Source of the DNA: an uncultured Microbacterium sp.
Lineage (GTDB): Bacteria > Actinomycetota > Actinomycetes > Actinomycetales > Microbacteriaceae
Assembly (NCBI GenBank): GCA_913774845.1
Contig: CAJYJO010000017.1
Coordinates: 1 to 64,000, forward strand
DNA: 64,000 bases
Reading direction: 5' to 3'
Of the stretch, positions 2,589-17,341 are shown piece by piece. Positions within the stretch are counted from its first letter, which is position 1; the number at the start of each line of letters is the position of its first letter. The notes under the pieces were generated by a model. It was not told the origin of the DNA. It was given only the letters and a program-made list of their open reading frames with translations, and did no database searches. A program made the position numbers and the translations under genes.

Positions 2589-2751
2589 ATGGGTGCTCCT
2601 TGGTGAGTAGGAACCGCGGAGATGACCGCCGCGGATTGTGACAAACCTAGTGGCGCCCTTGTGGCCGCGTTGTTGCAATGTGTTAACGGTCGATTACGCG
2701 ACCCAATCGTTACTTTTCCCGGGCGATTTCGGGCCGAGAAGCGAAGAAGGC

Positions 2752-3693
2752 TCAGACCGGTTCAGCCACATCGACGACCGCTCGACGATGCCGTCGCGAG
2801 GCGAGGACCGAGTCGACGCTCAGGATCGCGAGGGCGAGCCAGACCAGCGCGAACCCGACCCACCGTTCGATCGTCATCGGCTCGCCCAGCACCCACACGC
2901 CGATCGCGAACTGGATGATGGGGGCCACGAACTGCAACAGTCCGATCACCGTCAGCGGCACACGCCGCGCCCCCGAGGCGAAGAGCAGGAGGGGAACCGC
3001 GGTGACGGCCCCGGCGAGCAGCAGCAGCACGGTGTGCACAGCGCCGGCCGTCCCGAGGGTGATGCCGGTGAGGTCGGCGACGATCGCGAGCTGTATCGCC
3101 GCGACCGGCAGAAGCCACAGCGACTCGAGGGTCAAGCCGCTGACGGCATCCACCGCCGGACCGATCTGCTTCTTCACCAGGCCGTAGAACCCGAACGAGA
3201 ACGCGAGCGTCAACGCGATCCACGGGAACGAGCCGTACCCGACGACGATCACGGCGACCGCGACGACGGCGAGTCCGATCGCGATCCACGGCACGATCCG
3301 CAGCCGCTCGCGCAGCACGATCACACCCAGCAGCACGGTGACGATCGGGTTGATGAAGTACCCGAGACTCGTCTCGATGACGTGCTCCGAGAGGGCGCCG
3401 TAGAGGTACGTCTGCCAGTTGACGTAGATGAGGACGCCGGCGATCGCGGTCAGCCCCATGAGGCGCGGCTGTCGCACGATCGCGAGGAACGGCCGCCACA
3501 TCCGCAGAACCGTCAGCAACAGCAGGCAGAAGAGGAACGCGAGGATGATGCGCCAGGCGACGACTTCGAAGGGCCCCGTGGGAGCCAGCTGCAGGAAGTA
3601 GATCGGCAGGACTCCCCACAGCAGATACGCACCGAGCGCGTAGAGCGCGCCGCGGGTGCTCCCACCGGACGGAGCGGAGGGAGCGGGGGTCAC
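2752..3693 (-). CDS. rarD: EamA family permease RarD
   Basis: A 313-residue polytopic membrane protein with about ten hydrophobic segments. The opening GALYALGAYLLWGVLPIYFLQL, the segment FEVVAWRIILAF and the later LGYFINPIVTVLLGV are characteristic of RarD within the EamA/DMT superfamily. RarD was named in E. coli for its link to chloramphenicol sensitivity; its natural substrate is uncertain. The start is a GTG at 3693; no strong ribosome site is seen. The C-terminus is Arg-rich and cytoplasmic. It is separated from groES by a terminator, so it is probably transcribed alone. Confidence 0.88.
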   Translation of the reverse strand: MTPAPSAPSGGSTRGALYALGAYLLWGVLPIYFLQLAPTGPFEVVAWRIILAFLFCLLLLTVLRMWRPFLAIVRQPRLMGLTAIAGVLIYVNWQTYLYGALSEHVIETSLGYFINPIVTVLLGVIVLRERLRIVPWIAIGLAVVAVAVIVVGYGSFPWIALTLAFSFGFYGLVKKQIGPAVDAVSGLTLESLWLLPVAAIQLAIVADLTGITLGTAGAVHTVLLLLAGAVTAVPLLLFASGARRVPLTVIGLLQFVAPIIQFAIGVWVLGEPMTIERWVGFALVWLALAILSVDSVLASRRHRRAVVDVAEPV

Positions 3694-3780
3694 CGCCCCA
3701 GCCTACGGCTGCGCCCGACCGCAGGGCCGCCGACCGTCGCGCCTTTCCTGCCACGATCCTCGCGCGCACGCCGACACGAC

Positions 3781-3814
3781 GAAGGCCCCGGATGCCATGG
3801 CATCCGGGGCCTTC
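3781..3814 (-). terminator. Perfect 34-bp palindromic terminator after groES
   Basis: A perfect inverted repeat with 17-bp arms (first arm GAAGGCCCCGGATGCCA) directly after the groES stop codon. It would end groES transcription and shows that groES is not followed by groEL here. Confidence 0.8.
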
Positions 3815-3830
3815 AGACGATCTCGCTCGA

Positions 3831-4127
3831 TCAGCGGACGACGACCGCCAGGACGTCGCGAGCCGAGAGCACGAGGTACTCGTCGGCGCCGAACTTGACC
3901 TCGGTGCCGCCGTACTTGCTGTAGAGCACGCGGTCGCCGACGGCGACGTCGAGGGGGACACGGTTGCCGTTGTCGTCGATGCGGCCGGGGCCGACGGCGA
4001 CGACTTCGCCCTCCTGCGGCTTCTCCTTGGCGGTGTCGGGGATGACCAGGCCACTTGCGGTGGTCTGCTCAGCCTCGACCTGCTTGATGACGATGCGGTC
4101 CTCGAGCGGCTTGATGGAAACCGACAC
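3831..4127 (-). CDS. groES: Co-chaperonin GroES
   Basis: A 98-residue Hsp10 protein of normal length that caps the GroEL folding chamber in the cytoplasm. It begins [14 protein letters not shown] and contains the mobile-loop region [31 protein letters not shown] and the ending SARDVLAVV typical of GroES. The start is a GTG preceded by AGAGG. Two CIRCE operators and a 17-bp-spaced promoter lie upstream, so HrcA control is expected. groEL is not adjacent: a terminator and rarD follow. This is a stand-alone groES, and the chaperonin partner must be encoded elsewhere. Confidence 0.97.
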
Positions 4128-4161
4128 GGTCTACCTCTTCTTTCTCGTTACAGAAGACTTT

Positions 4162-4188
4162 TCAGCACTCACGCGGGGAGAGTGCTAA
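4162..4188 (-). promoter_or_regulatory. CIRCE operator (HrcA site), proximal copy
   Basis: TCAGCACTC, 9 nt, then GAGTGCTAA: the CIRCE consensus with one mismatch in one arm and the exact 9-nt spacer. It lies just downstream of the groES -10 box, where bound HrcA would block transcription. Confidence 0.93.
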
Positions 4189-4192
4189 TCCG

Positions 4193-4221
4193 AGTCTAGA
4201 GAAGCACTGGCACTCACGCAA
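4193..4221 (-). promoter_or_regulatory. groES promoter
   Basis: On the minus strand, -35 TTGCGT and -10 TAGACT are separated by exactly 17 nt. The promoter sits between and overlaps the two CIRCE boxes, consistent with heat-shock derepression. Confidence 0.7.
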
Positions 4222-4233
4222 CGCGAGTGCCAA
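4207..4233 (-). promoter_or_regulatory. CIRCE operator, distal copy
   Basis: CTGGCACTC, 9 nt, then GAGTGCCAA: a second CIRCE-type inverted repeat whose arms carry symmetric changes (GGCACTC/GAGTGCC). It overlaps the -35 region of the groES promoter. Confidence 0.85.
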
Positions 4234-4524
4234 CAGTCCTCGCACCGACCTCGACAGGCCGATTCGCGACGGGGTCATCCGCTTGCCGCAGCGCCCCTGC
4301 GTGAAGGCGGGATGGGCGCGGAGTATTGCACCTTTTGATGGCTACGTGAACACGTTTCACCCGCCCTTTCATCCGCTTCCGGGGTGTGCCACACTCAACG
4401 CAACAGCGTCGTCCGCATACAGGGGGTATCGGGCGATGAAGCACTAGGACTCGTTGACGAGTCCGAGAATCGGGGGATTCGGGGACGTTCGGCGTCCCTG
4501 CGTTTCTTCGGGGGGTCGAAATAC
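4234..4524. promoter_or_regulatory. Intergenic region upstream of the Hsp70-like gene with three inverted repeats
   Basis: No gene is seen. Three symmetric elements stand out: GTGAA-CACGT-TTCAC at 4346-4360, the 18-bp element GGACTCGT-TG-ACGAGTCC at 4447-4464, and a possible RNA hairpin GGGACG-TTCGG-CGTCCC at 4482-4498 close to the start codon. They are candidate operators or 5'-UTR structures for the Hsp70-LuxR transcript. The binding factors are unknown. Confidence 0.5.
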
Positions 4525-6537
4525 ATGGCAACGCCGTACTTTCTGGCGATCGACGTGGGAACGAGCAGGACGGCGGCGGCGACCGCGCGTTCCGCACCGG
4601 ACGGGACGCTGGTGGCCGCACCGCTCCCGCTGGGGCGCAACGCCGACAGCACACCGACCACCGTCTTCGTCTCCGACAGCGGACTGCTCTTCGGAGATGC
4701 CGCGGAGCGCCGGGGAACCGCCCAGCCCGAGCGGCTGGTGCGCGAGTTCAAGCGCCGCATCGGTGACGACGTGCCCATCGTGGCCGCCGACCGCCGCTTC
4801 TCCCCTCAAGACCTCTACGCCCTTGTCGTCGGTTGGGTGATCGGAACCGCCGTCGAACGCGAGGGCCAGCACCCCGCCGGCATCGCGGTCTCGGTGCCGG
4901 TCACCTGGGGCGAATACCGCACGCGACTGGTGCAGGATGCCATCGGGCGCCTCGGCTGGAACGACGTGCAGGTCATCACCGAACCCGAGGCCGCCGCCCG
5001 CCACTACGAGTCGACGCATCCCCTCGACAGCGACCGCGCCCTCGCCGTCTACGACTTCGGCGGCGGCACGTTCGACACCGTCATCCTGCGCAAGACCCGC
5101 GACGGTCACGTCGACTTCGTCGGCAGCCCCGTCGGCATTCCCGACCTGGGCGGCGCCGACTTCGACGACATCGTGCTGCGCCACACCGTGCGCGCCGCCG
5201 GCATCCCGGCATCCGCGATGGCCGGCGTCGCCACCGACGCGGGCGTGCGCATGGCGCTCGCTTCGCTGCGCCGCGAATGCGTCGACGCGAAGGAGTCGCT
5301 GTCGTTCGATGGCGAAGCCGTGGTCCCCGTGCTGATCGGCGACGGCCACGGGGCCGTGCGTCTGACCCGCGCCGAGTTCGAGGACATGATCGAGCCCGAG
5401 ATCGAGCGCACCGTCGAGGTGCTCGAGATGGCGCTCGAGCAGTCCGGCCTCACCGCCGCGGACCTCGACGCGATCCTCCTCACCGGCGGCACCTCGCGCA
5501 TCCCCCGGGTCGCGCAGCTGCTGTCGGAGCGATTCGACCGCCCGATCGCCATCGATGCGGACCCCAAAGCGATCATCGCCCTCGGCGCCGCCCGCACCGT
5601 CGCCCTCACCTCCGTCGCCGCACCGCTGGTCGGCCTGCACGCCGTCGACGACGACGAGGTTCAGGACGACGACGATGACGACGCCGCCCTCGGGGAGCTC
5701 GGCTTCACCGCCAGCCGCGCCGAGAAGCGCGCTCCCTGGTTTCGCCGCGTCCCCGCGACCGCGTACGTCGCGGCGGGGGTGACGGCCCTCGCCGTCGGCG
5801 TCGGTGTCGTGAGCGTCCCGGCGCTCGGTATAGGCCTCCTCGCTCGCACGAGCGCCGGAATCACCTCGCAGCCCCTCGCCGCCGACGCGGAGGTGCTGCT
5901 CTTCGACCCGATCGACCTGCCGACGGCTCCGCCGCCGAGCATCGCCGCCCCCGACGTGCAGCCGGCCGCCGAGGCGCAGCCTGCCGCGCCCGAGCAGAAA
6001 GCGGCGCCCGAGCAGCAGCGTGCGACGACCAAGGGCGAGACGCGCCAGCGGTCGCCGCAGCGCTTGACCCCACGCGCGGCCGAGGAACGCAGCCCGTCCG
6101 CCGCGGCATCCGCTCCGCAGCAGCAGCAGAGCAACGGCGGCGGCGGCAACTCCAGCGCCAATACCGGCGGAAACACCGGCGGCTCCAACAGCTCGGCCCC
6201 GGCGCCGACGCAGCAACAGCCTTCGGAGACCACTCCCGCTACGGGGGGCCAGCCGAGCGACACCCCGACGACGGGCGGCGGGTCGCCCTCCGACACTCCC
6301 TCGCCCGTCAACACCGGCGGAAGCACGCCCGGCGCGGGAGACGGCGGCAGCGGCGACGGCTCCGGCACCCCGAGCGGCGGGGACACCGGCGGTGGCGGCA
6401 CCGGCGGCGACACCGGTGCGGGCGGTTCCACCGACAGCGGTGGCCAGACCGAGACGCCTGTGCCGTCCGGGTCCGCGGAGCCTCCGGCGGACACGCCCAG
6501 CCCGGAAGCATCCGTCACCGAAACTCCCGCGGCCTGA
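4525..6537 (+). CDS. Hsp70-like ATPase with transmembrane anchor and Pro/Ala/Gly-rich extracytoplasmic tail
   Basis: A 670-residue protein. Residues 1 to about 390 are an Hsp70/actin-fold ATPase: phosphate-1 loop AIDVGTSRTAAA near residue 8, phosphate-2 YDFGGGTFDT at 176 and adenosine loop ILLTGGTSRIP at 318. Instead of an Hsp70 substrate-binding domain there is an acidic linker (DDDEVQDDDDDD), one transmembrane segment at about 410-440 and a low-complexity tail rich in Gln, Pro, Thr and Gly, predicted outside the cell. The ATG at 4525 is chosen because the ATPase fold begins there; the frame is open further upstream. The LuxR regulator follows after 29 nt and the IniB/dynamin genes come next, suggesting an envelope-sensing or scaffold role. 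That role is inference. Confidence 0.85.
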   Translation: MATPYFLAIDVGTSRTAAATARSAPDGTLVAAPLPLGRNADSTPTTVFVSDSGLLFGDAAERRGTAQPERLVREFKRRIGDDVPIVAADRRFSPQDLYALVVGWVIGTAVEREGQHPAGIAVSVPVTWGEYRTRLVQDAIGRLGWNDVQVITEPEAAARHYESTHPLDSDRALAVYDFGGGTFDTVILRKTRDGHVDFVGSPVGIPDLGGADFDDIVLRHTVRAAGIPASAMAGVATDAGVRMALASLRRECVDAKESLSFDGEAVVPVLIGDGHGAVRLTRAEFEDMIEPEIERTVEVLEMALEQSGLTAADLDAILLTGGTSRIPRVAQLLSERFDRPIAIDADPKAIIALGAARTVALTSVAAPLVGLHAVDDDEVQDDDDDDAALGELGFTASRAEKRAPWFRRVPATAYVAAGVTALAVGVGVVSVPALGIGLLARTSAGITSQPLAADAEVLLFDPIDLPTAPPPSIAAPDVQPAAEAQPAAPEQKAAPEQQRATTKGETRQRSPQRLTPRAAEERSPSAAASAPQQQQSNGGGGNSSANTGGNTGGSNSSAPAPTQQQPSETTPATGGQPSDTPTTGGGSPSDTPSPVNTGGSTPGAGDGGSGDGSGTPSGGDTGGGGTGGDTGAGGSTDSGGQTETPVPSGSAEPPADTPSPEASVTETPAA

Positions 6538-6566
6538 GCCGCGGCATCGGACCGAGAGATACGACG

Positions 6567-9149
6567 ATGTCCATCTCGAATACCGCCTCCGATGCCGCGT
6601 CCGGTGACCTCGACACGTTGCTGCTGCCCCGTGTCGCCCGGACGTTGCTCGATGCGTACCTCGGCGCCGCGGCGCCGACGCCCCTCGCGGTCGTCGGCAC
6701 GGCGGGCGCCGGAAAGTCGCGGGTGCTCCGGCACCTGTTCACCACGCTGCGCGCCGCGGGCGCCTCTCCCGTCGCGCTGACGGGAGAAGCCGACCTGCCG
6801 ACCGCCGAGGACCGCACAGCCGTGATCGTCGTCGACGACGCGCACCTGCTCGACGACTCCCTGCTCGGCACGCTCTCGACGCGCCTGCGCGACGGGAGTG
6901 CGACCGTGCTGCTGTCCACGCGCCCCGATCCCGCATCCCCGACGCTGCGCGCCCTGCTCGACGACATCGAACGGCACCAGCCGCCCATGCTCCTCGGGCA
7001 CGTCACCCCCGCCGATGCCATCGCCCACGTCGGCGTGACGCCGACGGGTGCCGCGAAAGACTGTCTCACCACGCTGTTCGACGCGACCGGCGGCCTCGCC
7101 TGGCTGACCGCCGAAGCCCTCGTGCTGCACGGCGAGGCCATCTGCGACGGTCGGTGCGACCACGACGAGATCGCGCGCTCGCTATACGACCTGGTCTCGC
7201 ACCGGATCGACTCGCTCGACCCCGCCCTGCGCCTGGCCGTCGAAGCGCTGTGCCTCGACGAGCGCTCCGCCCTCGACGGCAGCGCCGGGCCCGCGTGTGC
7301 CGCGGGATACGACGCCGGACTGCTCGACCGCGGCGGACGCACCGTCCCCCTCGTGCGCGACGCGGTCCGCGCGCGCCTGACGGCGGACCGCCTGCTCGAG
7401 CTGTACTCCGCCCGCCTGGTCAAGGACGCCGCCACCGTGCAGGCGCTGCTCGGAGGCGCGACCGACGAGCGGGTGGCATCCGCTCTGCTCGCCGACGGCG
7501 ACCGCGAACTGTCGCGAGACCCGGCCAAGGCCGCGGATCTCTTCGCGGCGGCCGACCGCGCGGGCGCCGCCCCCGAGACCCTGGCACTGCGTCGCGCGCG
7601 CGCCGCGTGGGCCCTGGGCGACGTGGATGCCGCGGGCGCCTTCATCGACGGGATGCTGTCGAGCGCTCAGGCGCCGGATGACGCCGCGCTCGACATGGCC
7701 GCGGCCGTGTGGGCGGCACGCGGAGACATGGACCTCGCCGCGCAGGTGTACGGCAGCGGCGCCCCCGCCACGCCCGAGAGCCGCGCCAAGTGGCTGATCG
7801 CCGCCATCGCCGCCGGACGCACCGACCCCGCCACACCGTCGGATGGCGCGAACGTCCGCTCCATCCCCACCGCGCACGTCGTCTCGCTCGAGCTGCTGTC
7901 GCGCGGCCTGCGCGCCTCGCTCGGCGACCACGGCGACGAGGGGCTGCAAGACCTGGTGCGGGCCAGCGAGATGTACACCGCCTCCGCCAACGACGCCCCG
8001 CTGCCCGAGCTGCCCGCCGTCCTCGCGGCGCTCGTCGCCCTCCACCTCGGGGAGGCCGCGGTCGCCCAACGAGTGCTGGATGCCGCGATCGCCGGCGCTC
8101 AGGGCGGATCGTGGGCGGCACCGCGACTGCTCCTGTGGCGGGCGTGGGTCGCCCTGCAGCTGGAGCACGCCTCCGAGGCGGAGGCGGCGCTGCGGACCGC
8201 GACGTCCTCCGGTGGCCCCCTCTCGACGCGCGACCGCTTCCTCGCGGACGCCGTCGAACTGGGTCTGGTGCGCCGCAACGGGCAGCCGTCCGAGCTCGCC
8301 CCGGTCTGGCATCGGGCGCAGGACTCCCTCCTGCGCACCCAGATCGACCTCTACACGCTGATCCCGCTGGGCGAGTTCGCCCTCTCGGCCGCCCGGGTCG
8401 GCGAGTCCGACGCGGTGCGCTCGCACCTGCGCCGGGCGGAGCTGCTGCTGGAGCATCTCGGGCAGCCGGCACTGTGGGAATCGAGCCTGCAGTGGGCCGC
8501 CCTGCACGTGAGCATCCTGCGCGGCAGCCCCGACGAGCTGACCGTGCACGCCCGCGCGCTCCTGGCCGCAGCGGCGCACTCCCCGCTCGCGGCGCGGCTC
8601 GCCCGCGCCGGTCGGGTGTGGACGGAAGTCCTTACCGGCGCCGTCGACGTGGATGCCATCGAGGAGGCCGCCGCGGGACTGGCGGCCGCCGGCTTCGCCT
8701 GGGACGGCGCGCGCCTGGCCAGCCACGGCGCCAGCAAATCCAGCGATCGACGCGTCATCGCCCGCCTCCTCGCCTGCGCGCGTCACCTGCACCCGCGCGA
8801 ACGCGCCGAAGCCCCGGTCGCCGCTCCCGCGACGTCGGCCGACACCGGGCCCATCGCCGCCCCCGTGCGTGCGGCGGAGCCCGGCGGCATCCTGAGCGAA
8901 CGGGAGCGGGAGGTCGCGGCGCTGGTCCTGCAGGGCAAGACCTACGCCGAGATCGGCGAGGAGATCTTCATCTCCCCGCGCACCGCGGAGCACCACATCG
9001 CGCGCATCCGCCGCCGACTCGGAGCCACGTCGCGCTCCGACCTGATGGCCCGCCTGCGCATGGTGCTCGAGGACGACGTCCGCGCCCCGATCACGGGCGC
9101 CGAACAGACACGGACGGTCGGGGTCCTGGCATCCGCCAACCCCCTATGA
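6567..9149 (+). CDS. Large LuxR-family ATPase transcriptional regulator
   Basis: An 860-residue cytoplasmic regulator of LAL-like architecture. It has a P-loop NTPase module with Walker A GTAGAGKS at residues 44-51 and Walker B VIVVDD at 86-91. A long alpha-helical, TPR-like middle rich in Ala and Leu follows, then a C-terminal LuxR/GerE helix-turn-helix at about 774-832 (LSEREREVAALVLQGKTYAE, then SPRTAEHHIARIRRRLG). The gene lies 29 nt after the Hsp70-like gene, probably in one operon, and directly before the first iniB-like gene, which has its own promoter with a G5-TT-C5 inverted repeat. It is the natural candidate to control the cluster; DNA binding to that box is inference. Confidence 0.88.
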   Translation: MSISNTASDAASGDLDTLLLPRVARTLLDAYLGAAAPTPLAVVGTAGAGKSRVLRHLFTTLRAAGASPVALTGEADLPTAEDRTAVIVVDDAHLLDDSLLGTLSTRLRDGSATVLLSTRPDPASPTLRALLDDIERHQPPMLLGHVTPADAIAHVGVTPTGAAKDCLTTLFDATGGLAWLTAEALVLHGEAICDGRCDHDEIARSLYDLVSHRIDSLDPALRLAVEALCLDERSALDGSAGPACAAGYDAGLLDRGGRTVPLVRDAVRARLTADRLLELYSARLVKDAATVQALLGGATDERVASALLADGDRELSRDPAKAADLFAAADRAGAAPETLALRRARAAWALGDVDAAGAFIDGMLSSAQAPDDAALDMAAAVWAARGDMDLAAQVYGSGAPATPESRAKWLIAAIAAGRTDPATPSDGANVRSIPTAHVVSLELLSRGLRASLGDHGDEGLQDLVRASEMYTASANDAPLPELPAVLAALVALHLGEAAVAQRVLDAAIAGAQGGSWAAPRLLLWRAWVALQLEHASEAEAALRTATSSGGPLSTRDRFLADAVELGLVRRNGQPSELAPVWHRAQDSLLRTQIDLYTLIPLGEFALSAARVGESDAVRSHLRRAELLLEHLGQPALWESSLQWAALHVSILRGSPDELTVHARALLAAAAHSPLAARLARAGRVWTEVLTGAVDVDAIEEAAAGLAAAGFAWDGARLASHGASKSSDRRVIARLLACARHLHPRERAEAPVAAPATSADTGPIAAPVRAAEPGGILSEREREVAALVLQGKTYAEIGEEIFISPRTAEHHIARIRRRLGATSRSDLMARLRMVLEDDVRAPITGAEQTRTVGVLASANPL

Positions 9150-9164
9150 CCCGTCCTGCGCTAT

Positions 9165-9208
9165 GGGGGTTCCCCCCGACGCGCACACGCACCCCCTCGA
9201 CCTAACGT
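9165..9208 (+). promoter_or_regulatory. Promoter of the first iniB-like gene with G5-TT-C5 inverted repeat
   Basis: An inverted repeat GGGGGTTCCCCC (9165-9176) lies 26 nt upstream of a -10-like TAACGT (9203-9208). The same element, at nearly the same distance from a -10 box, is found upstream of the third iniB-like gene. It is a candidate activator site for the adjacent LuxR regulator. Confidence 0.55.
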
Positions 9209-9238
9209 CGAACCAAGGAACAACCGTGAGGAGACCCA

Positions 9239-9979
9239 ATGAGCGTCACGCTGGCGACCATGGCAGATGCGCTGATCGAATTCATCCTGAGCCTGCTGCG
9301 TGACCCGCAGGCCGCAGCCGAGTTCGAAGAGGACCCGGAGGGCGCGATGGCAGCCCGCGGCCTGAACAACGTCTCGTACGCGGACGTGTGCTCGGTGGCC
9401 CCGGTCGTCGCGGAGAAGCCCTCCGTCGCCCCGAACCCGCAGCCGGCCCCCGTGCACGTCAAGCCGGAGCACGACAACCCGGTGGTGCGCGAGATCAAGA
9501 CGATCACGAACCAGCTGTCGTACACCCACATCGACGACCGCGACACGATCATCGACCAGTCGGTGAACCAGAACATCTGGGCCAATGGCGACGTCAACCA
9601 GACCTTCGGCAACGAAGCCGTCGTCGCCTCGGGCGACAAGGCCATCGCCGCCGGCAACGACGTCGACCAGGACACCACCCTGGACCAGTCGACCGACATC
9701 AACGCGGGCAACGACGTCAACATCGGCAACGAAGAGACGAACACCGACATCGACGGTTCCTACAACGAGAACACCGAGAACACCGAGAACACGGACAACT
9801 CGACCGACATCGACCTCACGGACTCGGCGAACGACTCCTCCACCGACGTGACCGTGGGCGACTCGTTCAACGACACCACCGACACGACGGTGGACACCTC
9901 GGTCGACGAGGACACCACCGTGGTGTTCGACTCGGGCAACGACTACGTCATCGAAGACACGACGGATGACACCCTCTGA
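9239..9979 (+). CDS. IniB N-terminal domain protein, acidic Asn/Asp-rich
   Basis: A 246-residue protein. Residues 6-57 (ALIEFILSLLRDPQAAAEFE and following, ending SVAPVV) match the N-terminal domain of mycobacterial IniB. From about 95 the sequence is very acidic and low-complexity, with a core at 104-160 (IDQSVNQNIWANGDVNQTF, then AVVASGDKAIAAGNDV) followed by DINAGNDVNIGNEE-like steps, TENTENTDNSTD repeats and many DSFND/DSGND elements. The regular short period suggests a beta-solenoid or an extended form. No signal peptide is seen. The ribosome site is GAGGAG. The stop overlaps the following membrane-protein gene by 14 nt. IniB is an envelope-stress protein in mycobacteria; the function here is inferred. 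Confidence 0.85.
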   Translation: MSVTLATMADALIEFILSLLRDPQAAAEFEEDPEGAMAARGLNNVSYADVCSVAPVVAEKPSVAPNPQPAPVHVKPEHDNPVVREIKTITNQLSYTHIDDRDTIIDQSVNQNIWANGDVNQTFGNEAVVASGDKAIAAGNDVDQDTTLDQSTDINAGNDVNIGNEETNTDIDGSYNENTENTENTDNSTDIDLTDSANDSSTDVTVGDSFNDTTDTTVDTSVDEDTTVVFDSGNDYVIEDTTDDTL

Positions 9980-10667
9980 CACGCCCTCGGAACGGCGGGT
10001 GGGCTCGAACGAGCTCACCCGCCGTTCCGGTGCGTCCGCCCCTTCCGCCGCCCGCTCCGAGGTGCGCCGCTCACCGGCACCGCCGGCGTACCAACCTGCG
10101 GCGAAGCCGTCGGCACCGGAACGTCCCGCGCTCCACGACAAGGCCGCCGCCCCGGTGATGGTGAAGATGCCGCCGCCCGCCGCGGTGCGCTTCGCGCAGA
10201 TTTCCTGGGTGCTGAGCCTCATCGTCGGCGCGATCGGCGTCGGCTATCTCTTCATCATCCGAGAGTCGCTGCGGCCCGACATCGAGGCGCTCGTGCGCGC
10301 CGTCGACGATTCCCGTCCCGCCGAGACGGTCACCACGGCGTCCGACATCGTCTATTGGTGCGTGTTCGGCGGTCTCGTGGCCGTCCTGCTCGTGCAGGTG
10401 ACCTCGCTGGTGTCGTTCAACAACCGCCGCAACAACGCCCGCTGGTGGATGCTCGGCATCCTCGTCTTCCAGACGATCGTCTTCCTCGCGGCACGGCAGT
10501 TCGTCGTGCTGGGGGAACGCGGCATCCCGCTCGAGCGCGTGCTGCTCATCCAGCTGGGCCTGTCGGCCCTGGGGCTGCTGTTCTCGCTGATCCCGGCGGC
10601 TCTACGCTGGACCCGACGAAAGCACGACATCCGCCGCGGAGTCGGCGGAGGCGTTCCCGAGCTGTGA
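9966..10667 (+). CDS. Hypothetical 4-TM membrane protein of the IniB/dynamin cluster
   Basis: A 233-residue protein. The first ~65 residues are Pro/Ala/Ser-rich and presumably cytoplasmic. Four hydrophobic segments follow (ISWVLSLIVGAIGVGYLFII, IVYWCVFGGLVAVLLVQVTS, WWMLGILVFQTIVFLAA and VLLIQLGLSALGLLFSLIP), then a basic tail RWTRRKHDIRR. No family was recognised. The ATG lies 14 nt inside the upstream iniB-like gene, so translation is probably coupled. Its last 66 nt overlap, on the opposite strand, the end of the second dynamin gene. It may be the membrane partner of the IniB-like or dynamin proteins. Confidence 0.75.
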   Translation: MTPSDTPSERRVGSNELTRRSGASAPSAARSEVRRSPAPPAYQPAAKPSAPERPALHDKAAAPVMVKMPPPAAVRFAQISWVLSLIVGAIGVGYLFIIRESLRPDIEALVRAVDDSRPAETVTTASDIVYWCVFGGLVAVLLVQVTSLVSFNNRRNNARWWMLGILVFQTIVFLAARQFVVLGERGIPLERVLLIQLGLSALGLLFSLIPAALRWTRRKHDIRRGVGGGVPEL

Positions 10668-12149
10668 CGACGGGGCGGTGTCCGAACCGAGCAGGTCGGA
10701 TGCCGCCCCCTCCACGCTGCGCACCACACCGCGGCACAGATCCGCCGTGTGCCGGTCGGTCAGCGGCGACTCCGCGATCGAGCGCCAGTGCGTGAGCAGG
10801 TCGTCGACGCGTTCGCGCTGCACGCGCGGCTCGGCGTCATCGCTCAGACCGAGACGACGCGCCGCGGACAGCCCGCCGCCGCCGACGATGCGCTCCGCCT
10901 CGGCGAGGGTCGCGGCATCGAGCTCGGGCGGCGCCGTCCGCAGCTCGGCGAGCAGCGACAGCTCGCGCAGATCGTGGCTCTGCGCCGTGAGCCGCTCGAT
11001 GGCGCTGAGGATCCCCGCGGTGTTCTGCTTCGGTCGCTCGCGCACGAGCCGCTCGACGCTGTGCAGGATGCCACGAGCCTTGAGCGCGAACGCACGCCCG
11101 CGGAACTGATCCTCCACGAAGCGCTGCACCTCGATGAGACCGCTCTGCTGGACCAGCCGGTCGGACAGCGCCGACGACGAGGAGGCGCCACCGCGGATGA
11201 GCGCGGCGGCCAGACGCACGCCGAACAGGCCGAAACGGCGCAGGAGTCCGCGACGGATCTCCACGCTCAGCGCCGTGTCGTCGGTGGCACGGGTGAATCG
11301 ATCGACGGTCAGCAGCAGACGGTCACGCGCGGCGCGGTCCATCATCGCGATGTGGCGCAGCGCGATGAACTCGCTCTCGCGGAGCGTACGACCGCCCTCG
11401 GCGAGCAGACCGGCCACCGGGATGACGTCGAGCGCGAGCGAGCGCAGCTCGCCGTCGCGACGGTAGCGGTCGGCGATCTTCGCCGCCGACAGGAGCGAGT
11501 CGATGCGTCCCGACCCGATCTCGTCGGCGCGCGAGAGCGCCGCGAGGGCGTTCACCGTCTGCGATTCGCCCGCGGCGGTGTCGCGGAAGGCCTCGAGGAA
11601 CTTGAGGTCCTCGGCGTGCACGTGCCGGAGCAGGTAGATGATGGCATCCGCCGCCGTGGGCGTGTCCTTCGGGATGAAGAAGTCGGTCGAACGCGCCGAG
11701 TTCTCCACCGTGAGCGAGGCGATGCCGGGGGTGTCGATGAGCACGGTCGAGCGCAGGTTCTCGCTCGGCCAGGCCACGTCGATCCACGCGACCTCCTCGG
11801 CGCTGTAGCCGCCCATGTCGAGTACGAGACGACCCTCGGACCGACGCACGGGACGCGAGATGCGCCGGCCGTCGTGCATGCGCAGATCGACCCGCGCGGT
11901 GGACCCGTAGCGGTACCACGTGATGGTGCGCGTGCACTCCCCCGCGTCGGTGGGCGCGATGCGCTCCCCGATGAGCGCGTTCAGCAGCGTGGACTTGCCC
12001 GCCTTGACGATGCCGGCCACGGCCAGGCGCAGCGGCTCGCGCAGACGTCCGCGGAACGACTCGAGCACCTCGACCGCGGCCGCGTCGTCGCCGTACGCCT
12101 CGAGGGCGTCGTCGACGATGCGCGCGACCTCGGGCAGACCGGCGCTCAT
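10602..12149 (-). CDS. Dynamin-like GTPase, IniC-like
   Basis: A 515-residue GTPase. P-loop GIVKAGKS at residues 46-53 (followed by TLLNALIGERIAPT) and G3 motif IDTPGIASL place it in the bacterial dynamin-like group; length and position after a longer dynamin resemble mycobacterial IniC (493 aa). The long helical C-terminus has no clear transmembrane segment. The start ATG overlaps the stop of the larger dynamin gene in an ATGA, so the two are translationally coupled and likely form a hetero-pair, as in other bacterial dynamin pairs. The 3' end overlaps the convergent membrane-protein gene by 66 nt. A membrane remodelling role is inferred from the family. Confidence 0.85.
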   Translation of the reverse strand: MSAGLPEVARIVDDALEAYGDDAAAVEVLESFRGRLREPLRLAVAGIVKAGKSTLLNALIGERIAPTDAGECTRTITWYRYGSTARVDLRMHDGRRISRPVRRSEGRLVLDMGGYSAEEVAWIDVAWPSENLRSTVLIDTPGIASLTVENSARSTDFFIPKDTPTAADAIIYLLRHVHAEDLKFLEAFRDTAAGESQTVNALAALSRADEIGSGRIDSLLSAAKIADRYRRDGELRSLALDVIPVAGLLAEGGRTLRESEFIALRHIAMMDRAARDRLLLTVDRFTRATDDTALSVEIRRGLLRRFGLFGVRLAAALIRGGASSSSALSDRLVQQSGLIEVQRFVEDQFRGRAFALKARGILHSVERLVRERPKQNTAGILSAIERLTAQSHDLRELSLLAELRTAPPELDAATLAEAERIVGGGGLSAARRLGLSDDAEPRVQRERVDDLLTHWRSIAESPLTDRHTADLCRGVVRSVEGAASDLLGSDTAPSSQLGNASADSAADVVLSSGPA

Positions 12150-14065
12150 CGGGCGACCGCCGCACGGGCCGGACGCGCCGACTCGAGCTCGGCGGCGGGG
12201 ATGCGCCCGCGCAGCGCCTCGATCTCGCGCAGCTGCGCGTGCAACTGCGTGATGCGCTTGTCGCGATCGGCCGTGTAGGTGGCCGCGGCCTGCTTGGCCA
12301 CCAGCACCGAGTCGCTCAGGGAGCGGTGCAGCTCCTCGGCGATCGAGCCGAAATGGTCGCGCGCCGTGCGCTGCACGATGCGGAGGCGGTCCTTGAGCTG
12401 CTTGCCCACCTGGAAGACGGTGTCCTCGATGTGGCGGCGCAGGAGGTTCTTCGCTTCGTTCTGACGACGGAGGAGACGGGTGGACATGTCCTCGCGATAC
12501 GCGCGGCGCCCCACGAGCACGCCGGCCAGCAGCGAGAGCGGGTTGATGAGCGACAGACCGACGATGCTCGTCGCCAGACCCACCATGAGCACGCCGCCGT
12601 ACGAGCCGCGCACGCCGATGTAGATCTTCTCGGCGGCACCCATCTTGCCGTCGTCGAGGTGCTGGAGCTCCTCGACCGGATCCAGCAGACCGTCGGTGCT
12701 CGCGACGTCGATGAGCGGGATCGATTCCTCGCCCATCCGGAACTCGTCGGCCACCTGCTCGGCCAGCCACTGCGAGCGCTCGTTCGTCCAGACGAACGTC
12801 TCGGACACCGCCGCGTTGACGCGCTGGTCCACCCACTCGGCGATCTGCTCCCAGATCGGGCCCGGGTCGCCCTCGTCGATCGCGGCCTCCCCCTCGCGCT
12901 GCACCTTGCGCAGACGGTCGCGCAGATCGTGCTCGGTGTCGGCGATGAGGTCGGCGATGCCGTCAGAGAGGGTGACCTGCCACCGCGAGGTGCGGCTGCG
13001 GAAGTCGTCGGCCTTGGCCTTGGCGTCCTCGAGGCGGGCGATCATGCCCGGAGTGTCCTCGGGGTGCTCGAGCGCGTTCAACTCCGTCTTGACGGTGAGC
13101 GCGAGCTGGTCCGCGACCGTCATCAGGTCGTGGACGGCGGCCCGGCGGTTGAGGTCCTCCGCTTTGCCCAGCACGTCACGGCGCAGGTGCGCCACCAGCT
13201 CGGGGAAGCCGGACTCCTCGTTCAGGTCGCGGTCCTGCTGCTCGGCGGCGAGCAGGCGCAGGTCGCTGGAGACGGCGAACACGGGGACGTCGTCGATGCG
13301 CACGCCGAGCTCGTCGAGGTGCTTCTCGTCGACACGCTGGATCTCGCGCCACTCGGGGTACAGGTCGGTCTTGGACAACACCGCCGCGACGTTGGGCGAG
13401 ATGCGCATGGCGTGCCGCAGGAACTGGATCTCGGGCTCGGTGTACTCCTGCGAGGCGTCGGAGACGAGCAGCACCGCGTGGGCCGTGGTCAGTGCCGCGA
13501 GGGTGGCGAGCGAGCGCGTGGACTCGAGCCCGCCGACACCGGGTGAGTCGACGATGCGCAAGCCCCCCTTGAGGATCTCGCGGGGCAGGAGCACCTCGGC
13601 GCCGACCACGTCGCCGTCCTGCTCGTCGTCGGCGCGGGAGGTGACGTAGTCGGAGAGCCGATCGAAGGGGATGTCGACGCGGCGGATCTCGTGCGATTCC
13701 CCGCTCTCGCGGCGCACGAGCACGGTCGCGGAGGGCTCCTCGGCATACCCGACGGAGGTGGGCACGCTCGTGGCGATGTCGTCATCGACGGCGCACGCGG
13801 GGGCGTTGATGAGGGCGTTGACGAGCTTGCTCTTGCCCTGTTTGAACTGCCCGACGATCACGACCCGCACGTGCGGGTCCTGCAGCCGAGACCGGGTGGC
13901 CGTGAGCTTCTCGACGAGGTCCTCACGACCGACCGCACCCGAGTACGCGCGAGCGCGTTCCACCAGGGGACCCAGCTCCGCGGGCGCCGGCGGTCGGTTC
14001 GACGTTCCGCCCGGGGCGGCGCCGTTCTCGGCGCGGGAAGTCGTGGGCTGGGCCGGTGCGGACAC
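12146..14065 (-). CDS. Dynamin-like GTPase, IniA-like
   Basis: A 639-residue dynamin-family protein, essentially the length of mycobacterial IniA (640), which is a membrane-fission dynamin induced by cell-wall drugs. P-loop GQFKQGKS at residues 72-79, switch region DIATSVPTSV, G3 DSPGVGGL and G4 SKTD are all present. After a long helical stalk there is a hydrophobic hairpin (GVLMVGLATSIVGLSLINPL and following) that would insert into the membrane, then a coiled-coil C-terminus. The start is a GTG with a weak GAGAGG site. The stop overlaps the next dynamin gene (ATGA). It is expected to act on the inner face of the cytoplasmic membrane. Confidence 0.9.
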   Translation of the reverse strand: MSAPAQPTTSRAENGAAPGGTSNRPPAPAELGPLVERARAYSGAVGREDLVEKLTATRSRLQDPHVRVVIVGQFKQGKSKLVNALINAPACAVDDDIATSVPTSVGYAEEPSATVLVRRESGESHEIRRVDIPFDRLSDYVTSRADDEQDGDVVGAEVLLPREILKGGLRIVDSPGVGGLESTRSLATLAALTTAHAVLLVSDASQEYTEPEIQFLRHAMRISPNVAAVLSKTDLYPEWREIQRVDEKHLDELGVRIDDVPVFAVSSDLRLLAAEQQDRDLNEESGFPELVAHLRRDVLGKAEDLNRRAAVHDLMTVADQLALTVKTELNALEHPEDTPGMIARLEDAKAKADDFRSRTSRWQVTLSDGIADLIADTEHDLRDRLRKVQREGEAAIDEGDPGPIWEQIAEWVDQRVNAAVSETFVWTNERSQWLAEQVADEFRMGEESIPLIDVASTDGLLDPVEELQHLDDGKMGAAEKIYIGVRGSYGGVLMVGLATSIVGLSLINPLSLLAGVLVGRRAYREDMSTRLLRRQNEAKNLLRRHIEDTVFQVGKQLKDRLRIVQRTARDHFGSIAEELHRSLSDSVLVAKQAAATYTADRDKRITQLHAQLREIEALRGRIPAAELESARPARAAVAR

Positions 14066-14126
14066 GCGGGTACCTCTCGGTCGGGGCCGACGCCTCTTCG
14101 GCGTCGAAGGGGAATGGGGACGACGA

Positions 14127-14158
14127 TAGCCCCGGGCGGGAAATCCCGCCCAGGGCTA
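14127..14158 (-). terminator. Terminator after the iniB-like pair
   Basis: A hairpin with arms TAGCCC-C-GGGCGGGA and TCCCGCCC-A-GGGCTA around a 2-nt loop, 34 nt downstream of the second iniB-like stop codon. It separates the iniB-like pair from the dynamin operon, which must then have its own promoter in the short 14066-14126 gap. Confidence 0.75.
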
Positions 14159-14191
14159 CCGTCAGACGCTTCCGTGTGTACGGATGGCTGA

Positions 14192-15043
14192 TCAGACCTC
14201 GACGTCGAAGTCGGGGAGCTGAACGTCCACGACCTCGGAGTTGCCGGAGCCCCAGACGACGTCGGCGTTGATCGTCCAGTTCTCGGTCTCGGTCGTCGAG
14301 AAGTCCTCGTTGAACGAGTCCGTCACGTCGACGTTGAGCGAGCCGTCGTTGTAGGAGTTGTCGATCGACCAGTCCTGCGAGTTGTCGGTCAGCTCGACCG
14401 AGATGTCGGTCGTGTTGCCGACGTTGTCCCACGTGGTGATCTCGGTGGTGTTGTTCATGTTGATGTCGCCTTCGAGCGACGTGATGTTCGTCGACGCGTC
14501 CAGCGAACGCGAGATCGAGACATCGTCGCCAGCGGCGACCGCACCCTCACCCGAGGCGGAGACGGCGCTGTTGGCGAACGATTGCGAAACTCCGCCGCCG
14601 GCCAGGATGTTGCCGTTGACCGACTGGTCGAGGATCGTGGCCTGGCTGTGGATGGAGGCATCGCCGCCGCCGAAGCCGGCGAAGCCCTGGAAGCCGGTGT
14701 TGTACTCGCGCACACCCGCGTTGGTGGAGTTGTCGGTCATCGACTCGTCCAGGTAGGTGTTGTGCGAGTCGACCTCGATGACCGCGTCCACCGAGTTGTC
14801 CGAGTTGTCGGAGTTGTCGTTGAACGAACCGTCGATGTCCCAGTCGGTGTTGCCGGAGTCGACGTTGCCGGAGTCCACGACGGTCGTGTCGGTGGAGGTG
14901 TTCTCCTCCACCGAGGTGTCGACGTTGCCGACGTTGTCGAGGTCGACACCGAGGTTGGTGGAGTTGTTGGTGGTCGACGTGTTGCCGACGTTCACCCAGC
15001 CCTCGTTGCCCGAGTCGGTGATGTTGCCGATGTCCCAAGTCAT
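14192..15043 (-). CDS. IniB-like acidic Asn/Asp/Ser/Thr-rich protein, second copy
   Basis: A 283-residue low-complexity acidic protein without the IniB N-terminal domain. It shares with its neighbours the core ILDQSVNGNILAGGGVSQSF, then NSAVSASGEGAVAAGDDV, and with the third copy also NAGVREYNTG. Flanking parts repeat DSGN, DNSDNS, DNVGN and SFND units. The near-absence of Lys, Arg and Cys and the regular hydrophobic spacing suggest an extended, possibly beta-solenoid fold. The ATG has AGGAAAG upstream. It lies 30 nt after the third copy in the same direction (one operon) and is followed by a terminator. No signal peptide is visible, so export, if any, would need a special route. Confidence 0.78.
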   Translation of the reverse strand: MTWDIGNITDSGNEGWVNVGNTSTTNNSTNLGVDLDNVGNVDTSVEENTSTDTTVVDSGNVDSGNTDWDIDGSFNDNSDNSDNSVDAVIEVDSHNTYLDESMTDNSTNAGVREYNTGFQGFAGFGGGDASIHSQATILDQSVNGNILAGGGVSQSFANSAVSASGEGAVAAGDDVSISRSLDASTNITSLEGDINMNNTTEITTWDNVGNTTDISVELTDNSQDWSIDNSYNDGSLNVDVTDSFNEDFSTTETENWTINADVVWGSGNSEVVDVQLPDFDVEV

Positions 15044-15073
15044 GATCTGTGTCTTTCCTGTCTCGTGTGACGC

Positions 15074-15931
15074 TTAGCCGACGAAGGGGAGGGTGGTGTC
15101 GACCGAGTTGAAGCTGTCGACGACGGCCTCGATGTTGACGTCGATGTCCGTGGTGCCCTCGAAGACGTCCGAGGTGTTGAACGAGCCGTCGACCGCGTAG
15201 TTCTCGGAGAGGTCGTTGAACGAGTCGGTGACGTCGATGACCGTGGAGCTGTCGGTGTAGGAGTAGTCGAGGTTGTACTCGTTCATCGAGTCCGTGATCG
15301 TGGTGACCGTGGTCTCGTTGCCGATGTTGATGTCGCCACCGGCGATGATGTTGGTCGACTGGTCGACGTCGTAGCTCCAGTCCACGTCGCCGCCGGCCGC
15401 GATGGAACCCTCACCCGAAGCGGAGACGGCCGAGTTCGCGAAGCCCTGCGTGACGTCGCCCTCGGCGGCGATGTTCTGGTTGACCGACTGGTCGAGGATC
15501 GTGGAGTTGCTCCAGATCTCGGTGTGGCCCGAGCCGGCGGCCGCGGCCGAAGCCGAACCCGAGGCACCCCAGATACCCGTGTTGTACTCGCGCACACCGG
15601 CGTTGATGGAGTTGTCGGTGGTCGAGGCGTCGGTGAACTCGTTGTACGAGCCCTCGGTCCAGTCGAGGTCGACCGAGTTGTCGGAGTTGTCCGAGTTGTC
15701 GTTGCCCGAGTCCGTGATGACGGTCGACTCGTTGTTCGAGCCCTCGTTGAACGAGCCGTCGACGTTGGTCGTGGTCTCGTCGGTGATGACGGTGTCGTTC
15801 GTCTCGTTGAACGAGTCGGTGGCGCCCAGGTCGGTGTTGACCGAGTTGTCCTCGTTGACCTCGTTGAGCGAGTCCGCGATGACCGTGTTGAGCGAGTTGT
15901 TGATGTCGCCGGTGGTAGGCATTTCTTCCAT
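15074..15931 (-). CDS. IniB-like acidic Asn/Asp/Ser/Thr-rich protein, third copy
   Basis: A protein of about 285 residues starting MEEMPTTGDINNS; the ATG at 15922 is an equally possible start. It is built from DSFNET, DSGNDNSDNSD and similar acidic units around the cluster core ILDQSVNQNIAAEGDVTQGF, then NSAVSASGEGSIAAGGDV, preceded by NAGVREYNTG and an Ala/Ser-rich loop. It ends SFNSVDTTLPFVG. Like the second copy it lacks the IniB N-terminal domain and a signal peptide. It heads the two-gene operon; its upstream region carries two G5/C5 inverted repeats like the one before the first iniB-like gene. Function unknown. Confidence 0.78.
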   Translation of the reverse strand: MEEMPTTGDINNSLNTVIADSLNEVNEDNSVNTDLGATDSFNETNDTVITDETTTNVDGSFNEGSNNESTVITDSGNDNSDNSDNSVDLDWTEGSYNEFTDASTTDNSINAGVREYNTGIWGASGSASAAAAGSGHTEIWSNSTILDQSVNQNIAAEGDVTQGFANSAVSASGEGSIAAGGDVDWSYDVDQSTNIIAGGDINIGNETTVTTITDSMNEYNLDYSYTDSSTVIDVTDSFNDLSENYAVDGSFNTSDVFEGTTDIDVNIEAVVDSFNSVDTTLPFVG

Positions 15932-15975: not shown

Positions 15976-16039
15976 AGATTAGGAACGGCCCCGTTTTCCG
16001 ACATCGGGGGCACCCCCGGTATCGGGGAGGGGGTCCCCC
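15976..16039 (-). promoter_or_regulatory. Promoter of the iniB-like pair with two G5/C5 inverted repeats
   Basis: On the minus strand a -10-like TAATCT (15976-15981) is preceded after 24 nt by GGGGGTGCCCCC (16006-16017) and, 11 nt further, by GGGGGACCCCC (16029-16039), about two helical turns centre to centre. The proximal element matches the one before the first iniB-like gene. The shared layout suggests one activator. Confidence 0.55.
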
Positions 16040-16153: not shown

Positions 16154-17341
16154 GTGGACACCGCCGAGCTCACCGCCCTGCTGACCCCCGAGGGGCTGCG
16201 CCTGCTCGACGAGGTGGGTCCCCTCTCCTCGGTGGACGACGCCGCCCGTGCCGTGTCGCGTCTGCGCGGGGCGGGGCACTCCCCCGACCTCGTCTCGGCG
16301 GTGGTCGGTCAGGCGCGGCTGCGCGTGCGCGCCGCGACGAAGTTCGGCCCCTTCGCCGACCGGATGCTCTTCACCCGCGCCGGCCTCGAGCAGGCCACGC
16401 GTCTGCCGATCGCGGCGCGCCACGCCGGCCGGTTCCGTGCCGCGGGCATCGGCAGCGTCGCCGACCTCGGGTGCGGTATCGGCGGCGACGCCCTGGGGCT
16501 GGCGGGGCTCGGCATCCGGGTCCACGCCGTCGACGCCGACGAGGTGACCGCCGCGATCGCCGCCTTCAACCTCGCCCCGTTCGGCGAGGCCGCCACCGTC
16601 GCGCACGCGCGCGCCGAGGAGGTCGATCTCGAGGGGATGGATGCCGTCTGGCTCGACCCCGCGCGCCGCACCGCGGGACACTCCGAGACGCGTCAGGTCG
16701 CCTCCGCCGAGTGGTCCCCCTCGCTCGAGTGGGTCTTCGAGCTGCTGCGCACCACCCCGGGCGGGGTGAAGCTCGGCCCCGGCTTCGACCGCGAGCGGAT
16801 CCCCGACGACGTCGAGGCGCAGTGGATCAGCGCCGACGGCTCGACGATCGAGCTCGTCCTGTGGGCGGGCGCGCTCGCGCGGGAAGGCGTCCGGCGAGCG
16901 GCCCTCGTCGTCCGCGGCGACGACGCGTTCGAGCTGACCGCCCCCGCCGACACCGCCGACGTCGACGCGCGGGACCTCGGGGCGTTCGTGCACGAACCCG
17001 ACGGCGCCGTGATCCGCGCGCGTCTCATCGGCGAGGTCGCCCGCGCCCTCGACGCCGGCATGCTGTCCCCCGGGATCGCCTACCTCACCTCGGACGCTCC
17101 CCTGACGAGTCCCTTCGTGTCGTCGTTCCGCGTGCGCGAACAGCTGCCCGCCGACCCGAAGAAGCTCGCGCAGGCGCTGCGGGTCCGAGGCATCGGCACG
17201 CTCGAGATCAAGAAGCGCGGCGTCGACGTCGACCCCGCGGTGCTGCGCAAGAAGCTGTCGCTGCGGGGCGAGGAGTCGGCGACGCTGCTGCTGACCCGGG
17301 TCGGCTCGAAGCGTCTGGCCCTTCTCGCCGACCGCGTCTGA
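16154..17341 (+). CDS. Class I SAM-dependent methyltransferase with THUMP-like C-terminus
   Basis: A 395-residue protein. The Rossmann methyltransferase core is seen from SAM motif I (VADLGCGIGGD, residues 102-112) through VDADEVTAAIAAFN to the catalytic-type motif LDPARR. The C-terminal part (RVREQLPADPKKLAQALRVR, then IGTLEIKKRGVDVDP) is the THUMP-like domain found in actinobacterial relatives annotated as RNA or unknown methyltransferases. The GTG start is preceded by a -10 box at leaderless distance. It stands alone between the iniB-like operon (divergent) and the tsaD operon (convergent). The substrate is unknown, probably RNA by architecture. Confidence 0.85.
   Translation: MDTAELTALLTPEGLRLLDEVGPLSSVDDAARAVSRLRGAGHSPDLVSAVVGQARLRVRAATKFGPFADRMLFTRAGLEQATRLPIAARHAGRFRAAGIGSVADLGCGIGGDALGLAGLGIRVHAVDADEVTAAIAAFNLAPFGEAATVAHARAEEVDLEGMDAVWLDPARRTAGHSETRQVASAEWSPSLEWVFELLRTTPGGVKLGPGFDRERIPDDVEAQWISADGSTIELVLWAGALAREGVRRAALVVRGDDAFELTAPADTADVDARDLGAFVHEPDGAVIRARLIGEVARALDAGMLSPGIAYLTSDAPLTSPFVSSFRVREQLPADPKKLAQALRVRGIGTLEIKKRGVDVDPAVLRKKLSLRGEESATLLLTRVGSKRLALLADRV

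Follow-up and report, generated by a model that had tools for sequence, protein, structure and literature searches.

The 64-kb contig stretch analysed here (the window; uncultured Microbacterium sp., CAJYJO010000017.1, positions 1 to 64,000) carries a locus of eight genes that, judged by its sequences, is a divergent and extended form of the mycobacterial iniR-iniB-iniA-iniC locus. It encodes an Hsp70-like protein with a transmembrane (TM) helix, a homologue of the regulator IniR, a protein with the IniB N-terminal domain, a protein with four hydrophobic stretches (the 4-TM protein), two dynamins, and two further acidic proteins. The locus is not a chance grouping, because its genes are co-conserved across loci. 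On balance, we favor the proposal that it is an envelope stress module of the iniR-iniBAC type, in which the TM-Hsp70-like protein would be a sensor that tunes IniR and, through it, the IniB proteins and the dynamins. The regulator-operator part of this proposal is better supported than the sensor role. An earlier note on this DNA had presented the system as undescribed. As a whole it is not, since the LuxR partner and a second IniB are already known; what is new here is the conserved TM-Hsp70 partner of iniR-iniBAC, which the papers covered mention once, together with a candidate operator.

The regulator and the dynamins

The mycobacterial iniR-iniB*-iniB-iniA-iniC locus is Rv0339c-Rv0343. 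In the sections covered of Boot et al. 2017 (PMC5760070), IniR (Rv0339c, MMAR_0612), studied in M. marinum and M. tuberculosis, is the dedicated activator of iniBAC; in mycobacteria it answers to cell-wall drugs and trehalose, it gives a chromatin immunoprecipitation (ChIP) peak at the iniBAC promoter, and it has the architecture of MalT-type STAND regulators, that is, a P-loop, a long middle part, and a LuxR helix-turn-helix (HTH). The same sections place iniB* between iniR and iniBAC and mention, in one sentence and with no function proposed, a dnaK-like gene at the M. smegmatis locus. The view of the earlier note, that iniBAC has one IniB and neither a LuxR nor an Hsp70 partner, is not supported by that paper, and as regards LuxR it is wrong. 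A full-text search of the open-access literature found no paper developing the link between iniBAC and Hsp70. No experiment on a non-mycobacterial member was found.

The LuxR-type gene of the window matches the IniR model NF038181 with 353.5 bits, under the 750-bit equivalog cut-off, and GerE with 51.7 bits. By these scores it is a homologue of IniR and not an equivalog as NCBI defines it. The protein has a P-loop (VGTAGAGKSR), a long middle region, and a C-terminal LuxR-type HTH, like the MalT-type STAND regulators, but the MalT model fits poorly (10.7 bits), and the IniR model is the better match.

The dynamin of 639 residues (Dynamin_N of Pfam, 66.9 bits) aligns over residues 34–614 with M. 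smegmatis IniA (PDB 6j72; 440.9 bits, E 5.9e-131) and is of the IniA type. Beside it, its gene overlapping the IniA-like gene by 4 bp, lies the second and shorter dynamin expected of an iniA–iniC pair (515 residues; Dynamin_N, 50.3 bits); no curated IniC model matched it. In the following, the two are called DynA and DynC. According to the sections covered of the cited papers, IniA performs membrane fission (PMC6715688), and the dynamins IniA and IniC are linked to vesicle release (PMC11832169, citing Gupta et al. 2023).

Co-conservation of the genes

The window's family was represented by 150 genomes. IniR (E ≤ 1e-112) was found in 11 of them and the IniB N-domain in the same 11; in this search, 3 of 14 genomes had weak matches to the HTH only (E ~1e-10) and were not scored as IniR. 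Hsp70 (E ≤ 1e-40) was present in 12 of the 150, ten of them among the IniR genomes, and the eleventh IniR genome (G132) has a weaker Hsp70 (E 1.3e-30) in the same locus. Two genomes, G056 and G118, have a TM-Hsp70 without IniR, in a different cluster that also has a response regulator and a protein weakly similar to DynC. Ten further family loci were fetched; all have the IniA-like dynamin and nine have DynC, the remaining one (L017) stopping at a contig end. Presence is patchy even near the window, as the same-genus genomes G106 and G462 gave no match to IniB_N or to IniR.

A wider set of loci was collected by scanning contigs with the alignment of the IniA-like dynamin alone, and the best 80 of 562 confirmed relatives were examined. 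These belong to Microbacterium, Agromyces, Naasia, Agreia, Rhodoglobus, Arthrobacter, Pseudarthrobacter, Paenarthrobacter, Georgenia, and Phycicoccus, to some metagenome genomes, and to one record titled Planococcus. DynC is present in all 80, IniB in 79, the 4-TM gene in 73, IniR in 72, and Hsp70 in 68; in all 12 loci without Hsp70, the contig stops on the flank where the gene is expected. The earlier note had proposed that the parts belong together and had set beforehand, as what would refute it, that Hsp70 and LuxR are not conserved alongside the iniB-like genes and the dynamins; the counts in the family genomes and in these best 80 loci bear the proposal out.

Within the same best 80, hsp70 and iniR run in the same direction in 68 of 68 loci. 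The spacing between them is −25 to +33 bp in 51 of these and 1.3–2.7 kb in three; the remaining 14 have larger negative spacings, probably from open reading frames (ORFs) over-extended upstream. One of the 14, L105, contains a single ORF of 1359 residues (3991–8070) that would be an Hsp70–IniR fusion; it was not used, as the junction reads like an assembly frameshift. Two gene orders occur: iniR points the same way as the dynamins in 44 loci and the other way in 28, the type of the window.

The association extends across the phylum. Among 396 genomes, IniR (E ≤ 1e-20) was found in 16 and IniB_N in 18, with 15 in common, and an Hsp70-like gene lies within the locus stretch read for all 16 IniR genomes. 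Weak IniB matches below the cut-off came from G438 (L043, which has no other gene of the locus), G346, and G401. In one locus of another class, L048, Hsp70 adjoins iniR. In the family of the mycobacteria and their relatives, 66 of 131 genomes have IniR, and Hsp70 lies directly before iniR in 63 of 67 loci; 60 of these were found by script and three (L029, L141, and L182) by eye, their iniR ORF having been called too long. Contig ends account for three of the other four (L049, L132, and L140), leaving one real exception, L038 of genome G299, in which Hsp70 lies past the dynamins.

Protein distances among 45 loci are correlated for Hsp70 and IniR (0.58) and for IniR and DynA (0.85), as they are for Hsp70 and DynA; none of 2000 permutations reached any of the three values. 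These correlations fit common inheritance and do not separate it from species history.

Further TM-Hsp70 genes were seen in other arrangements. L035 (15494–16936) and L036 (15590–17347) have a second one downstream of iniR besides the upstream one, and some Hsp70-like match, mostly weak, lies downstream of iniR in 16 of the 67 loci of the Mycobacteriaceae family. The dnaK-like gene noted at the M. smegmatis locus may correspond to this downstream copy. A second type of cluster within the window's family, in L026 (5060–9615) and L027 (5779–10311), combines a TM-Hsp70 (ORF of 769–1029 residues) with a response regulator (REC and LuxR HTH) and a protein of 586–600 residues. This protein matches the DynC profile weakly (42–45 bits) and has no Pfam match at E 0.01; IniB was not matched in these clusters.

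The Hsp70-like protein

The match of the window protein to Pfam HSP70 (139.9 bits) covers profile positions 31–372 of 599, which is the nucleotide-binding part only. This domain occupies approximately residues 7–359 (7–357 in the PDB match) and is followed by one TM helix, at about residues 421–439, and by a low-complexity acidic tail of some 230 residues rich in Pro, Gly, Ser, and Thr. The protein is like DnaK and the Hsp70 chaperones in its nucleotide-binding domain and in the four active-site residues checked (D, K, E, and T), all of which are present. Unlike DnaK, it has a TM helix and a predicted extracytoplasmic tail in place of a substrate-binding domain, none being found after the end of the Pfam match.

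This topology is conserved. A TM helix downstream of the ATPase domain was found in 63 of 68 named homologues and in 55 of 56 from the Mycobacteriaceae family, falling below the threshold in the other five and one, respectively. Lysine and arginine (K/R) are in excess before the helix in 61 of the 63 and 54 of the 55, with means of 3.7 before and 0.3 after among the 63 named homologues. Therefore, the ATPase domain is predicted to lie inside and the tail outside (N-in/C-out). In three loci of another class (L040, L041, and L042), the end of the tail has, in place of plain repeats, a conserved segment containing HVHFFFDT and two cysteines, which is possibly a folded sensor domain.

The four active-site residues are intact in 42 of 42 loci of the Micrococcaceae/Agromyces/Georgenia type, in 5 of 5 of other classes, and in 15 of 26 of the Microbacterium type, the window counted. 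In the other 11 Microbacterium-type loci, one to four of the residues are missing from Hsp70, and the IniR P-loop is kept. The P-loop of IniR is absent from 34 of the 42, from 2 of the 5, and from 19 of 61 loci of the Mycobacteriaceae family, although some of these 19 IniR ORFs may be truncated at the start. In the 42 loci, with the P-loop of IniR mostly lost and the Hsp70 residues always kept, a tentative reading is that Hsp70 has taken over the sensing of ATP. Against a strict swap of this kind, an IniR without a P-loop and a degenerate Hsp70 occur together in 19 of 56 loci from other Mycobacteriaceae-family genera.

A candidate IniR operator

In the Micrococcales, the intergenic regions between iniR and iniB contain a dyad close to GGCATCGGGG-N4-CCCCGATGCC. 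At least 14 of the 20 consensus positions are matched in 60 of 69 regions, against a mean of 12.4 in shuffled sequences; the consensus was read by eye from these same regions, which favors it in this comparison. A blind motif sampler was not usable, as it converged mostly on the coding start of iniB. The location of the sites gives a fairer test. A palindromic matrix made from 53 iniR-iniB sites of other genomes was run across the window, and its two best sites were 16000–16023 (16.3 bits), in a region that had no part in the training of the matrix, and 9160–9183 (14.0 bits); the third, at 43394, lies elsewhere and scores 9.2 bits. A matrix from Microbacterium-type loci only puts the same two on top, with 16.7 bits for the site at 9160 and 13.6 for that at 16000.

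The two best dyad sites of the window precede its two iniB-like operons, and for this reason it is probable that both operons answer to IniR; the dyad would then be the IniR site. This fits the suggestion of the earlier note that the LuxR protein controls the iniB-like genes. The upstream region of hsp70 has none of the window's 12 best sites. In 18 of 25 Microbacterium-type loci, where 3.1 would be expected, the top-scoring site beyond the iniR-iniB region is located 0.5–2.6 kb before DynA; three of the 18 are weak (L058, L062, and L075; 6.7–7.6 bits), and the test left out loci with less than 1.3 kb before DynA, as well as L076, L085, L089, L104, and L129. Across the whole genome, a pattern built from the two window sites, which it therefore matches exactly by construction, found no other exact match and a single additional place at one mismatch. 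With up to three mismatches it matched 245 times on one strand and 250 times on the other, and the reversed-pattern control 74 and 70 times.

In other Mycobacteriaceae-family genera, a similar dyad, GGGG-N4-6-CCCC, precedes iniB in 45 of 56 loci, compared with 62 of 2800 stretches taken at random from these loci; the pattern was first noticed on the loci in which it was later counted. In Mycobacterium-like loci, a dyad lies before iniB in five of six, in a longer stretch that had no control of its own. The agreement with the published ChIP peak is in the position before iniB only. The HpoR repressor site at the iniBAC promoter, as given in the sections covered of PMC13413693, is unlike the GGGG-N4-CCCC dyad.

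The IniB-type proteins and the 4-TM protein

An IniB N-terminal domain (NF038175, IniB_NTERM; 74.9 bits against a cut-off of 40) is present in the first acidic protein, which contains 21.1% D+E versus 3.3% K+R. The earlier note had taken the other two acidic proteins, b and c, to be IniB-like as well. This stands for the core, which they have in common with the first IniB (probability 99.9 by hhalign of the family alignments), and fails for the N-terminal domain, which the IniB_NTERM profile did not find in either; on this evidence, b and c are IniB-like in the core part only. All three proteins have K+R contents of 0.4–3.3% and a computed isoelectric point of 4.05, the lowest value that the calculator can give. 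The AlphaFold model of protein c has no confident fold (mean pLDDT 33.5), and searches of PDB profiles with both IniB alignments gave no significant match. Among the non-significant ones, profile positions 12–46 of the IniB N-domain matched LigA-domain proteins, including SonA, the precursor of a ribosomally synthesized and post-translationally modified peptide, with E 0.24–0.28.

In the 4-TM protein, two of the four hydrophobic stretches are barely above the threshold used. The gene is kept in Micrococcales-type loci, is present in the same-genus locus L028, and had no match in the Mycobacteriaceae-family loci scanned (L029–L050 and L131–L189).

Layout of the locus

The eight genes that the earlier note had delimited are confirmed by their open frames, all with an ATG or GTG start and no inner stop, and by their family matches (Table 1). 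Antisense ORFs such as 9161–10222 (−) and 10749–12278 (+) were rejected, as they overlap the family-supported genes. The gene hsp70 adjoins iniR on the same strand, with 29 bp between them, and the operons iniB-4TM (+) and iniBc-iniBb-iniA-iniC (−) converge.

Table 1. Genes and candidate operator sites of the locus, in window coordinates.
Feature	Coordinates	Strand	Basis
Hsp70-like membrane protein	4525..6537	+	Pfam HSP70, PDB match, hydropathy, K/R count, aligned homologues
IniR-like LuxR/STAND regulator	6567..9149	+	NF038181 IniR, GerE, P-loop
Candidate IniR operator 1, GGGG-N4-CCCC dyad	9160..9183		14.0 bits; 55 bp 5′ of iniB
IniB: IniB N-terminal domain and acidic Asn/Asp/Ser/Thr-rich region	9239..9979	+	NF038175, composition, family alignment
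4-TM protein, basic Pro-containing N-terminus	9966..10667	+	Four hydrophobic stretches
IniC-like dynamin, 515 aa	10602..12149	−	Dynamin_N, 50.3 bits
IniA-like dynamin, 639 aa	12146..14065	−	PDB 6j72 IniA, 440.9 bits
Acidic IniB-like protein b, IniB core without N-domain	14192..15043	−	hhalign against IniB alignment
Acidic IniB-like protein c, IniB core without N-domain	15074..15931	−	Same basis as protein b
Candidate IniR operator 2	16000..16023		16.3 bits; 68 bp 5′ of the genes of IniB-like c, IniB-like b, IniA-like and IniC-like proteins

The window thus resembles the mycobacterial iniR-iniBAC locus in its IniR-type regulator, its IniB N-domain protein, its IniA- and IniC-type dynamins, and its dyad before iniB. 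It differs in having the 4-TM protein, two converging iniB-like operons, and an IniB core rich in Asn and Asp, not in Gly; its host is presumably without mycolic acids, unlike the mycobacteria. The TM-Hsp70 before iniR would also set the window apart, yet the Mycobacterium-like genomes often have it as well. The M. smegmatis locus has an Hsp70-like gene as the window does, and in the window and most loci examined this gene is upstream of iniR.

By its dynamin, the nearest named relative, with 93% identity over the best-matching segment, is Microbacterium testaceum, so the genome very probably belongs to Microbacterium. The flanking genes look unrelated: a Thump_like methyltransferase (Pfam) at 16154–17341 on one side and, on the other, ORFs at 1107–2606 and 2638–3924 without a Pfam match. 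Farther along, an ORF of 1387 residues at 27041–31204 (−), with matches to Big_6, DUF2141, and Cna_B, probably encodes a large protein of the cell surface. Scanning the window against Rfam and for tRNAs gave no match.

Proposed mechanism and its alternatives

We propose that the low-complexity outer tail of the Hsp70-like protein would read the state of the wall or membrane, and that the nucleotide-binding domain would touch IniR and so convey to it either this state or the level of ATP. Under envelope stress, IniR would bind the dyad and turn on both iniB-like operons. Once induced, the IniA and IniC dynamins would excise damaged plasma membrane or seal it, perhaps using the acidic IniB proteins and the 4-TM protein as membrane adaptors. 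We infer the sensor step from the topology, from the order of the genes, and from the fact that no clear dyad precedes hsp70; by analogy, the mycobacterial responses of IniR and the fission activity of IniA may hold in Microbacterium.

Several observations weigh against this proposal. IniR works in M. marinum and M. tuberculosis, for which only iniB* is described between iniR and iniBAC in the sections covered of PMC5760070; an adjacent Hsp70, therefore, cannot be needed everywhere. In six loci of other classes (L040, L042, and L044–L047), Hsp70 lies beside iniB or past the dynamins and does not adjoin iniR. In the Mycobacterium-like genus (that of G187), represented by 98 genomes and probably Mycobacterium in a broad sense, as 66 of them pass the IniR cut-off, Hsp70 is directly upstream in at least 47 of 69 IniR genomes; the rest comprise three contig starts, seven with Hsp70 elsewhere within 12 kb, and 12 with none among the matches used. 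At least two of the four active-site residues are missing from all 61 Hsp70s checked in the Mycobacteriaceae family, and in the window protein the K/R bias is weak (two before the helix and one after). The window IniR scores below the equivalog cut-off of its model. As to the operator, the Microbacterium-type matrix gives 12.1 bits to the site at 43394, near the score of the second site; GGGG-N4-6-CCCC occurs in just two of five loci of other classes (random, 2 of 250); and no dyad precedes iniB* in six Mycobacterium-like loci (random, 1 of 300). The best site lies before hsp70 in 4 of 41 loci (the L081–L130 set), where 0.8 would be expected, so a weak copy of the dyad before hsp70 is possible in some loci. 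Finally, the distances of Hsp70 track those of DynA (0.78) better than those of IniR, which fits an effector role too.

Such a role is the main rival to the sensor model. The Hsp70-like protein would then be an ATP-driven membrane scaffold that assembles or disassembles coats of dynamin and IniB, as Hsc70 acts on clathrin coats, and IniR would sense trehalose or ATP alone. The correlation with DynA, the six loci in which Hsp70 is beside iniB or the dynamins, and the functional IniR of M. tuberculosis (PMC5760070, sections covered) all favor it, and so does the second cluster type (L026 and L027), in which a similar TM-Hsp70 has as its partners a response regulator and a protein that weakly resembles DynC. 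However, the order hsp70-iniR, with near-zero spacing, holds in both Micrococcales and Mycobacteriaceae; an effector-operon dyad before hsp70 is not evident in the window or in most of the 41 loci; and the ATPase residues are lost throughout the Mycobacteriaceae-family loci checked. We consider an effector role rather unlikely, though well short of negligible.

It is very doubtful that the gene is an ordinary accessory chaperone traveling with the locus without a mechanistic link: its relation to DnaK in sequence is offset by the missing substrate-binding domain and the conserved TM helix and outer tail, and a protein retained beside iniR in a whole family after losing residues of the ATPase cycle is unlikely to be a chaperone.

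Equally slight is the chance that the locus is an anti-phage dynamin defense module and not an envelope-drug response, for although it is patchily distributed (11 of 150 family genomes) and PADLOC matches the IniA-like dynamin to LeoBC (69.2 bits) and LeoA (59.4 bits), Leo is far from its best family, the IniR and IniB partners are those of iniBAC, and the other six proteins gave PADLOC matches only to LeoA (24.6 bits, DynC) and CARF3 (20.0 bits, in the HTH of IniR), or none.

Implications

iniBAC is a widely used reporter of cell-wall drugs in mycobacteria, and the route from damage to IniR is unsettled, the sections covered of two papers pointing to trehalose (PMC5760070) and to the ATP level, with an ATP burst proposed as the link to iniBAC induction (PMC6104191). 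A conserved TM-Hsp70-like partner and a defined candidate operator make this question testable in laboratory strains of Microbacterium or Arthrobacter. It is tempting to speculate, and we do so tentatively, that TM-Hsp70 and IniR are the ancestral sensor-regulator pair of iniBAC across the Actinomycetota, that the Hsp70 domain was repurposed from a chaperone to a sensor of the envelope or the ATP level, and that the iniBAC lineages studied so far have lost or degraded it. If the sensor model is true, the ATPase domain of Hsp70 would serve here as a part of membrane signaling.

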